Virus record (IMG/VR): IMGVR_UViG_3300013286_000081
Coordinates: 1-20,432 of that record
Origin: a virus
DNA: 20,432 bases
Reading direction: 5' to 3' (one strand)
Part shown: positions 9,909-17,844 of the stretch, in pieces
How positions within the stretch are numbered: position 1 is the stretch's first letter
How the letters are laid out: every line of letters starts with the position of its first letter
The notes under the pieces: generated by a model
The model's database searches: none
The model's input: only the letters and a program-made list of their open reading frames with translations
What the model was told of the DNA's origin: nothing
Position numbers and translations under genes: made by a program

Positions 9909-10753
9909 TGAACGCCGTACAGATTCAAGAAATATACAATAAGTTGCATGAATTAAAAGAGTTTTACTCTTCATACGGCAGTGCGTTTGATAATCATTCA
10001 ACTGTATGCAGTTCATTTGAAACGTTAATAAGCAATATGGAAAGCAATCTATCTTCTGCAAAAGGTCAACTTTATGGAAATAGTGCAACACTGCTAGATA
10101 GGTTATTGCGACAAGATTTAGAAGCAAGAAAAAATTTTGTTGCTGTAAACAAACTACACGATGAGGATGTTAACAATTTATCAATGGCAATGGCAGCGCA
10201 TGTAGGAAATAATGAACCAGCGTTAGAATTGTTTCCTGGTATTGGGCAATTTTTACCATTTGCTGTTGCCAGTGAACCACTTTATATAGTTGACCGCTAT
10301 ATGGAAATATGCGAAACTGCTGGTGATTCTTTACAAAACGATTTCTATAAGAACCGTAGACTACGAAAATATACTACAAGCGGTTATGATTTGTCTGCAC
10401 TACCATATAACTCATTTGGGTTGGTATACTGCTTTAACGAGTTTTACTATGCTAACATAGAATATATCTATAGTTGGGCAGTTGAAATCTTTAACCTATT
10501 ACACAATGGCGGTAAATTTGTTTTTAATTTTATGCCAGATGATCAAATATGGGCACAAGAAGCAAATCTAAAACTTGATTTTAGCAGCATTGACTATAAA
10601 GAGTTAATACGTAGACTAATAGAATATGGTTATGAATTAGAAAACTATAAAATACAACCATTTCGCAGTAGTTACATAGTAGTTAAAAAACCAGGCGATG
10701 TACCACCTAGAGTAAAAATAAGTGGTAGCAGCGCAGAAATAATTGACATCTGA
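9908..10753 (+). CDS. putative class I SAM-dependent methyltransferase
   Basis: 281 residues; the ATG overlaps the polymerase stop (TAATG), so translation is coupled. The N-terminal 95 residues look helical. A Rossmann-type methyltransferase core follows: motif I ALELFPGIGQF (105-115), an acidic residue at the end of strand 2 (IVDRY, D129), LPYNSFGLVYCFNEFYY (165-181) where the motif IV strand is expected, and LLHNGGKFVFNF (197-208). No DPPY/NPPY motif is seen, so it is unlikely to be an N6-adenine or N4-cytosine DNA methylase of the usual kind. The substrate is unknown. Its place between polymerase and clamp might suggest a nucleic acid or replication-protein target. Confidence 0.75.
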   Translation: MNAVQIQEIYNKLHELKEFYSSYGSAFDNHSTVCSSFETLISNMESNLSSAKGQLYGNSATLLDRLLRQDLEARKNFVAVNKLHDEDVNNLSMAMAAHVGNNEPALELFPGIGQFLPFAVASEPLYIVDRYMEICETAGDSLQNDFYKNRRLRKYTTSGYDLSALPYNSFGLVYCFNEFYYANIEYIYSWAVEIFNLLHNGGKFVFNFMPDDQIWAQEANLKLDFSSIDYKELIRRLIEYGYELENYKIQPFRSSYIVVKKPGDVPPRVKISGSSAEIIDI

Positions 10754-16653: not shown

Positions 16654-17034
16654 GTGTTACAAAAATCTAAACAAGAGTGGACGCACGAATTATATCATCT
16701 TGCTCATGGCGAAGATGCGTTTGTTCCACATATAAAACAAAAAAATATCTATATTCTTTATTGGTATAATAACAACAAAAATTTTGGATACAGGCTCAAC
16801 AATACCGCATTTGAAATGATGCGCAATGCTGGTTATAAATTTTACGAACATCATATTGATAGACGAAAATATCAGGTCAATGGCAAAGAACTAGTGTTAA
16901 TGGATCGTTATCATGCGCATCCTTGGTTTTACCAAATGAGTAAGGGTGAATTGTTTTTAATGGACAGCGAACTCTCTATGATGTTAGAACTTTGTGGCGG
17001 AAATTTAGGGCAAGCCATTCAAAATATGTCTTGA
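16654..17034 (+). CDS. hypothetical protein, start uncertain
   Basis: About 126 residues from GTG 16654, 4 bases after the upstream stop; an in-frame GTG at 16624 (136 residues) is equally possible, and neither has a good Shine-Dalgarno. The protein is rich in Tyr, His and Asn: NIYILYWYNNNKNFGYRLNN, FEMMRNAGYKFYEHHID, VLMDRYHAHPWFYQMSKGE. It looks alpha/beta with no recognised motif. The final TGA is the TGA inside the TTGACA of the next promoter. Function unknown. Confidence 0.65.
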   Translation: MLQKSKQEWTHELYHLAHGEDAFVPHIKQKNIYILYWYNNNKNFGYRLNNTAFEMMRNAGYKFYEHHIDRRKYQVNGKELVLMDRYHAHPWFYQMSKGELFLMDSELSMMLELCGGNLGQAIQNMS

Positions 17035-17058
17035 CAGATATATAATCCATGCTATATT
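17031..17058 (+). promoter_or_regulatory. sigma70-type promoter, cassette type
   Basis: TTGACA 17031-17036, a 16-base spacer and TATATT 17053-17058, with a second TATAAG at 17064-17069, then GGAGAAAGG before ATG 17085. The TGA within TTGACA is the stop codon of the upstream gene. It drives the ArfA-like gene and the gene after it. Confidence 0.85.
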
Positions 17059-17084
17059 CATAATATAAGCAGTGGAGAAAGGCG

Positions 17085-17204
17085 ATGCGCAGCGCAGCAG
17101 CAAAAGAATTAGCGAAACCGCTGTACCGTCAGCGAATAGTTCTTGCCAAAAAAGGCAGAGGCAGTTATAATCGTAAGAAGCAAAAGGAAACTAGCAATGA
17201 CTGA
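17085..17204 (+). CDS. ArfA-like alternative ribosome-rescue factor (39 aa)
   Basis: A 39-residue gene with GGAGAAAGG just before the ATG and a cassette promoter upstream. The core PLYRQRI-x3-KKGRGSYNRK matches, from memory, the E. coli ArfA core PLFRQRV-x3-KKGKGSYMRK: about 13 of 21 aligned positions identical and most others conservative. ArfA enters the empty mRNA channel of ribosomes stalled on broken mRNA and recruits RF2 to release the chain. The Lys/Arg-rich tail here (RKKQKETSND) is shorter than that of E. coli. Unlike E. coli arfA, whose mRNA is cut by RNase III to make it tmRNA-sensitive, I see no strong hairpin, and the frame ends in a normal TGA overlapping the next gene by 8 bases. 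A phage could use it to keep ribosomes free while host mRNA is degraded. Activity is inferred. Confidence 0.75.
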   Translation: MRSAAAKELAKPLYRQRIVLAKKGRGSYNRKKQKETSND

Positions 17205-17844
17205 CATGATTTCTCTCAAGGATGCTATGACTGCCGCCGTAGCCGCCCAACGGGTTAATGGCAAGTATATCAAGCGTTATGATGCCAAGGAAGGTGAACT
17301 TTCTAATGGTGTTCTCATGCGTGAATTTCTCAATCCAGAAATGGTAAACTTTAGCCATTTGTCGCAAGATATTGAAGTTGCTGAACAAATTTTGGAATAC
17401 CTTGACAGCAAGATGATTGAACTTATTGCTGGCACTCTCCATGATTATTGGAAGAATCTTGTCCTATTGACAGAACAAAAAACGATTAATGGCAAGGATT
17501 TCAAGACTTTAGCACTAGTTGCTAGCGTACCTAACTCCTATTTTAACGCAATTGGGCGTGAAAAAGCGCAGGATGAACTGCGTATTATTAGCGAAACTAG
17601 CCGTCATATTGGCAAGGTTGGCGACAATATTGAGGCAGATTTGACCATCAAGTCAGCGGTTTATAGTGCCAACTATAACAAATGGTATCATACCGCCCTT
17701 ACTGCTGACCAAAATTTGGTTTGTTTTCCGCTGTCAGAACAGTTAAATCGGGACGATATTATCTCTATTTCAGCCAAAATTCACAAGCATGACGATAATA
17801 ATCAGACCCGATTGCACTATGTGCGGATTAAAAAAAGTGCTTGA
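17197..17844 (+). CDS. hypothetical phage protein, 215 aa
   Basis: Start at ATG 17197 with AAAAGGAAA before it, overlapping the ArfA-like stop by 8 bases; an in-frame ATG at 17143 lies inside the ArfA-like gene and is rejected. The first half is helical (ISLKDAMTAAVAAQRVNGKY, QDIEVAEQILEYLDSKMIEL). The C-terminal part (NKWYHTALTADQNLVCFPLS, then ISISAKIHKHDDNNQTRLHY, VRIKK) has a beta pattern with H-x(4)-QT-L-VRI that I have seen at the ends of various phage replication proteins and may be an OB-like fold. Function unknown. Its TGA stop lies inside the next promoter's TTGACA. Confidence 0.78.
   Translation: MTDMISLKDAMTAAVAAQRVNGKYIKRYDAKEGELSNGVLMREFLNPEMVNFSHLSQDIEVAEQILEYLDSKMIELIAGTLHDYWKNLVLLTEQKTINGKDFKTLALVASVPNSYFNAIGREKAQDELRIISETSRHIGKVGDNIEADLTIKSAVYSANYNKWYHTALTADQNLVCFPLSEQLNRDDIISISAKIHKHDDNNQTRLHYVRIKKSA

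Follow-up and report, generated by a model that had tools for sequence, protein, structure and literature searches.

The DNA analyzed here, a stretch of 20,432 nt referred to below as the window, comes from a freshwater, giant-phage-like virus that carries a very short version of ArfA (39 aa). The ORF encoding it lies on the + strand (17085–17204) and its product reads MRSAAAKELAKPLYRQRIVLAKKGRGSYNRKKQKETSND. The transcription unit is ordered promoter, arfA, 215-aa gene, with an 8-nt overlap between the two genes, and the next promoter (17841) comes directly after (Table 1). The original prediction had endowed arfA with its own promoter and ribosome-binding site: both the promoter and the GGAG site are present, but the promoter is shared with the downstream gene, and it is retained in relatives that lack arfA. 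It is also a standard phage promoter, since the window has seven promoters of the same kind, i.e. TTGACA followed at 15–18 nt by a TAT-rich second hexamer, all of them on the + strand and none on the - strand. These TTGACA...TATATT-like promoters lie at 10743, 13571, 14402, 17031, 17841, 18072 and 19132, and in most cases a GGAG-like site and a start codon come next.

Table 1. Features of the arfA transcription unit (positions in the window)
Feature	Position	Strand	Basis or remark
Sigma-70-type promoter, TTGACA-16-TATATT, TG before second hexamer	17031–17058	+	Consensus scan, 11/12 matches
arfA ribosome-binding site, GGAG	17074–17077	+	Sequence; 7 nt before arfA ATG
Short-type arfA, ATG to TGA (39 codons + TGA)	17085–17204	+	PF03889, PDB ArfA chains, conserved position, purifying selection
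Codons 1–11, equivalent to E. coli residues 12–22	17085–17117	+	K7 at Ala18, E8 at Leu19
PLYRQRIVLA, equivalent to E. coli residues 23–32, including RF2-contacting Leu24/Phe25 and beta strand 25–29	17118–17147	+	Alignment
Basic tail KKGRGSYNRKKQKETSND, equivalent to E. coli residues 33–50, which fill the empty mRNA channel	17148–17201	+	Alignment
AGGA ribosome-binding site of the next gene (17185–17188, inside arfA) and its ATG (17197)	17185–17199	+	Sequence
215-aa gene, unknown function (phrog_3628), co-transcribed with arfA	17197–17844	+	PHROGs, relatives, structure model

As a whole, the structure model of the 215-aa protein is of low confidence (pLDDT 57.5), but its C-terminal beta domain is modelled at fair confidence. 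Structural matches to this low-confidence model include a protein of Sinorhizobium phage phiM9 and some entries annotated as ssDNA-binding or OB-like; the relatives retrieved are all of unknown function.

In enterobacteria, a 3' hairpin ends the arfA message before the stop codon, so that the product is tagged by tmRNA (PMC8012679). The window gene, unlike E. coli arfA, has neither the 3' hairpin nor the tmRNA gate: its RNA folds no better than shuffled sequences (z 0.01; 0.12 for the surrounding region), whereas a Citrobacter arfA analyzed as a control gave a z of -5.8 and a long 3' hairpin. The suggestion that the phage copy escapes tmRNA control thus holds at the sequence level. With an ordinary in-frame stop codon and no hairpin at its 3' end, the gene should yield its peptide without a tmRNA gate, i.e. 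irrespective of how occupied tmRNA is. We considered a terminator-like stem at 17119–17134, within arfA, as a conserved control element and rejected it, as it is absent from one of the arfA subtypes described below (subtype B).

Family membership and comparison with E. coli ArfA

The Pfam ArfA profile PF03889, whose curated gathering cut-off is 25.5 bits, matches the 39-aa protein with 35 bits (E = 9.9e-9), and with 33 bits when searched over the virus record. In agreement with this, a phmmer search against the PDB retrieved the E. coli ArfA chains of ribosome complexes (E about 7e-4) in an ungapped match covering query residues 8–32. A search of NCBIfam with the protein gave no match, and PHROGs gave weak matches only, to families of unknown function. 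The GGQ catalytic motif of ArfB/YaeJ is absent from all 39 residues. As 39 residues leave little room, we used recurrence in relatives (see below) as a second line of evidence. The 39-codon ArfA-like gene that had been predicted is therefore real: the ORF matches PF03889 and recurs in relatives, and its match to ArfA is not due to chance.

The protein was aligned to E. coli ArfA without gaps, with the proline as anchor, and residue roles were taken from PMC5378476. The segments read in the original prediction, PLYRQRI and then KKGRGSYNRK, are both found in the protein; their order and spacing are those of the PLFRQRV and KKGKGSYMRK core of E. coli ArfA. By this alignment, L13 and Y14 correspond to Leu24 and Phe25, residues 14–18 to the RF2-pairing strand (25–29), and residues 20–37 to the channel tail (31–48), while the C-terminal end falls at the equivalent of residue 50. 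The KKGxGSY core is thus present and the basic tail, which extends past the equivalent of Asn47, is long enough for the mRNA channel, as in E. coli ArfA; note that E. coli ArfA truncated at Asn47 is active while truncation after Met40 inactivates it (PMC5378476, Demo et al. 2017).

The reading of the segment as an ArfA core is therefore borne out, but it had overlooked the absence of the N-terminal part present in E. coli ArfA. Indeed, the protein starts at the equivalent of residue 12 and has no counterpart of E. coli residues 1–11, which include Ile11 and the contacts with h44 and S12 (PMC5378476). The E. coli-type N-terminal minidomain, with Ile11 and Ala18, is absent from the alignment, and so is the hydrophobic C-terminal extension. 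Ala18 is replaced by K7; the A18T substitution in E. coli ArfA abolishes peptide release while retaining RF2 binding (PMC5378476). In the Leu19/Leu24/Phe25 hydrophobic patch, which in E. coli ArfA contacts Trp319 of RF2 (PMC5378476), Leu24 (L13) and Phe25 (Y14) are kept, whereas Leu19 is replaced by E8, with L9 next to it. With the minidomain largely missing and Ala18 and Leu19 replaced, RF2 activation must differ in detail from that in E. coli. The missing N-terminus and the non-alanine residue at position 18 are traits of short-type proteins overall and not damage in one copy; we file the window protein as a short-type PF03889 member, not as an E. coli-type ArfA.

BrfA from Bacillus subtilis also rescues ribosomes by recruiting RF2, and it is likewise a small peptide whose C-terminus is basic (PMC6881298). 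It has a different sequence, however, with two N-terminal helices and a conserved Arg25, whereas the window ORF matches PF03889; compared by description, BrfA-type helices would not fit the window protein, because just 11 residues precede the core.

Recurrence in relatives, in other phages and in alphaproteobacterial genomes

Relatives of the locus, found via the downstream gene, comprise 33 contigs of a viral collection (64–93% identity). An ArfA ORF lies directly upstream of the downstream gene in 18 of them, as in the window, and falls into subtype A, MRSAEARELAKPLYRQRIVLAKKGKGSYNRKKQKETSND, or subtype B, MRS[VL]IAKSL[AT]DPKYRQK...RKGKGSY.... The KKGxGSY core is conserved in all arfA-bearing relatives, as KKG[RK]GSY or RKGKGSY. 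Two of the outcomes named beforehand as refuting the original prediction, a lack of any profile match and a core not conserved among related phages, are contradicted by these results. Between subtypes, pS is 0.65–0.93 and pN 0.27–0.30 (pN/pS about 0.31–0.46). Within subtype B, pN/pS ranges from 0.06 to 0.40 where any amino-acid change occurs and is mostly below 0.2; within subtype A, the changes are silent except for three replacements that set the window apart. Changes between the window and its own subtype apart, pN/pS is well below 1, and the ArfA protein is under purifying selection.

The remaining 15 relatives have no arfA at the locus. Fourteen of them retain the promoter as well as the upstream and downstream genes, with a clean junction at which one GGAGAACT.GC-like site runs directly into the downstream gene; one arfA-less relative (L043) has its upstream side replaced. 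Eleven arfA-less contigs were searched whole and their fragments hold no ArfA copy elsewhere. arfA is dispensable, and on the tree of the downstream gene its distribution requires at least five gains or losses (two if only strongly supported branches count).

ArfA was also sought in other phages, with PF03889 over phage records and, for 39-aa relatives, with degenerate DNA patterns. Matches above the cut-off were found in Caulobacter phage Cr30, Erythrobacter phages XM05 and L02, Roseobacter phage CRP-212, Brevundimonas phage Gurke, Citromicrobium phage RXM, Ochrobactrum phage OC, Microcystis phage Mwe-JY26, Pseudomonas phage pf16 and Salmonella phage Arash; two pelagiphages gave weaker matches. 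ArfA is named in these records only for RXM and, as a note, for OC. The ArfA ORF lacks a CDS annotation in Cr30 and L02 and overlaps a different annotated CDS in CRP-212 and pf16, and the Arash gene (gp99c; PF03889 68 bits) is labelled ribosomal protein L2 although it is a long-type ArfA. The overlap in CRP-212 is with the 3' end of gp38, in another frame; similarly, the short ArfA ORF of a Rhodospirillaceae MAG contig overlaps the 3' end of a longer ORF in another frame.

Among the phages seen, short types predominate in those of Alphaproteobacteria, and the long type occurs in those of Gammaproteobacteria. The long-type proteins of T4-like enterobacterial and pseudomonad phages (Arash, pf16) are phage-borne like that of the window, but have the full E. 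coli-like N-terminus, e.g. YKHNRGVIKESAVKAILQDPLF, and score 66–71 bits. Short-type phage proteins were already reported: RXM g10 was named ArfA in its own paper, and gp30 of Pelagibacter phage HTVC027P, also named ArfA, was expressed at a high level both early and late in infection (PMC12753301). Both share with the window protein the core NPxAxxLxxPxYR...KKG[RK]GS[FY]; they belong to other phage groups, lie at other positions and show a modest identity to it (37–44%), and gp30 has a longer, unrelated N-terminus. Phage ArfA is thus already known (RXM and HTVC027P reported, OC noted), and the window is a confirmed, better-defined example rather than a system of a new kind. No ArfA is present in the jumbo phages whose DNA polymerases are nearest (Phosso, Atu_ph07, XaC1 and Vibrio 2.275.O), so that, as far as tested, arfA is not ancestral to that whole group. 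From the nearest polymerases and the ArfA type, we lean towards an alphaproteobacterial host.

Small basic proteins resembling short ArfA without the GKGS stretch, e.g. MAAKKNAIARDLRSPKYRPRVVKSKKAYVRRPKHP, were noticed in L282–L288 and in Acinetobacter phage ZZ1. Profile comparison with short ArfA gave a 98.4% probability, and some resemble DUF7230 (PF23876); judged by their sequences, they are possibly another rescue-factor family.

In a DNA-level survey published in 2024, arfA was found in none of 2,376 alphaproteobacterial genomes (PMC11633108). By contrast, the protein profile matched 17 of 385 genomes in the class to which a Rhodospirillaceae MAG belongs and 68 of 99 genomes in one family of small, low-GC alphaproteobacterial genomes (49 above the Pfam cut-off), a family called SAR11-like here on the basis of genome size, GC and gene content. 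The published zero is thereby corrected, as at least one alphaproteobacterial family with small, low-GC genomes commonly has short ArfA. The clear cellular short ArfAs that we read are about 35–40 aa long from the likely start, and the single one examined in its context has ordinary chromosomal genes as neighbours. SAR11-like proteins (about 35–50 aa, MKKRNPIAEDLRSPKYKKRIVKPKKGKGSFKRKKK-like) lack the same N-terminus as the window protein and are about 45–48% identical to it, but are encoded by cellular genes. Since the short form is native and common in these small low-GC genomes, it is no relic confined to phages but a protein that is maintained. The published zero had suggested that phages provide ArfA to hosts always devoid of it; this idea was dropped because ArfA is found in Alphaproteobacteria.

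Proposed action and alternatives

We propose, with a probability of roughly 0.8, that the window encodes a genuine, conserved short-type phage ArfA, which likely acts in RF2-dependent rescue of non-stop ribosomes. The phage promoter would drive transcription of arfA, and the peptide would enter ribosomes whose mRNA channel has been emptied by a cut or run-out message: its basic tail (KKGRGSYNRKK...) would occupy the empty channel, the PLYRQRIV segment would pair with host RF2, and RF2 would hydrolyze the peptidyl-tRNA, which would free the ribosome. RF2 recruitment, peptide release and a benefit to the phage are what we infer from the following. The protein matches PF03889 above the cut-off and the ArfA chains of the PDB, recurs in 18 of 33 relatives and has a low pN/pS; its tail reaches the equivalent of residue 50, beyond the Asn47 truncation that is still active (PMC5378476); other phage ArfAs also exceed the cut-off, HTVC027P gp30 is highly expressed, short ArfA is native to low-GC alphaproteobacterial genomes, and the message has no hairpin. 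Against RF2-dependent rescue we count the absence of residues 1–11, the replacement of Ala18 by K and of Leu19 by E given that A18T abolishes release, the lack of arfA in 15 of 33 relatives and the absence of a match in NCBIfam.

As regards purpose, the phage could need rescue by ArfA to cope with cleavage of ribosome-bound mRNA by host toxins or defence nucleases, and not with mRNA destruction of its own making. This is compatible with RF2-dependent rescue, and the patchiness of arfA among close relatives (the gain and loss steps counted above) is that of accessory counter-defence genes; we nevertheless consider it rather unlikely, as a PADLOC search gave no match and ArfA can also aid defence, DRT2 Neo production being thought to use ArfA (PMC11100668).

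The N-terminal differences would also fit a dead-end ArfA, which enters the channel and may bind RF2 but, devoid of the minidomain, cannot open it; instead of rescuing ribosomes it would hold them or block trans-translation, resulting in ribosome parking or host shut-off. The phenotype of A18T in E. coli, i.e. RF2 bound and release stopped (PMC5378476), is in line with such behavior in a protein lacking residues 1–11 and bearing K and E at positions 18 and 19. Yet the native short ArfAs of low-GC Alphaproteobacteria share the missing N-terminus and the non-alanine residue 18, which would be odd for an inhibitor and makes a dead-end role improbable. It is most improbable that the small ORF chiefly couples translation to the 215-aa gene, its ArfA likeness being secondary: the 8-nt overlap and the ribosome-binding site inside arfA would suit a translational leader, but the downstream gene is retained in arfA-less relatives and has a ribosome-binding site of its own there, conservation extends beyond the reading frame to the protein sequence, and PF03889 is matched strongly.

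A tentative possibility, which we find somewhat less probable than its opposite, is that short ArfAs (35–45 aa, without N-terminal minidomain or tmRNA gate) form a minimal class of rescue factors in their own right. Such a class would be native to some Alphaproteobacteria, would have been acquired repeatedly by the phages of these bacteria, and would open RF2 by contacts unlike those known from E. coli. A ribosome-rescue peptide is carried by phages of unrelated groups, most copies being unannotated, and its short form poses a sharp question: how little ArfA suffices to open RF2.
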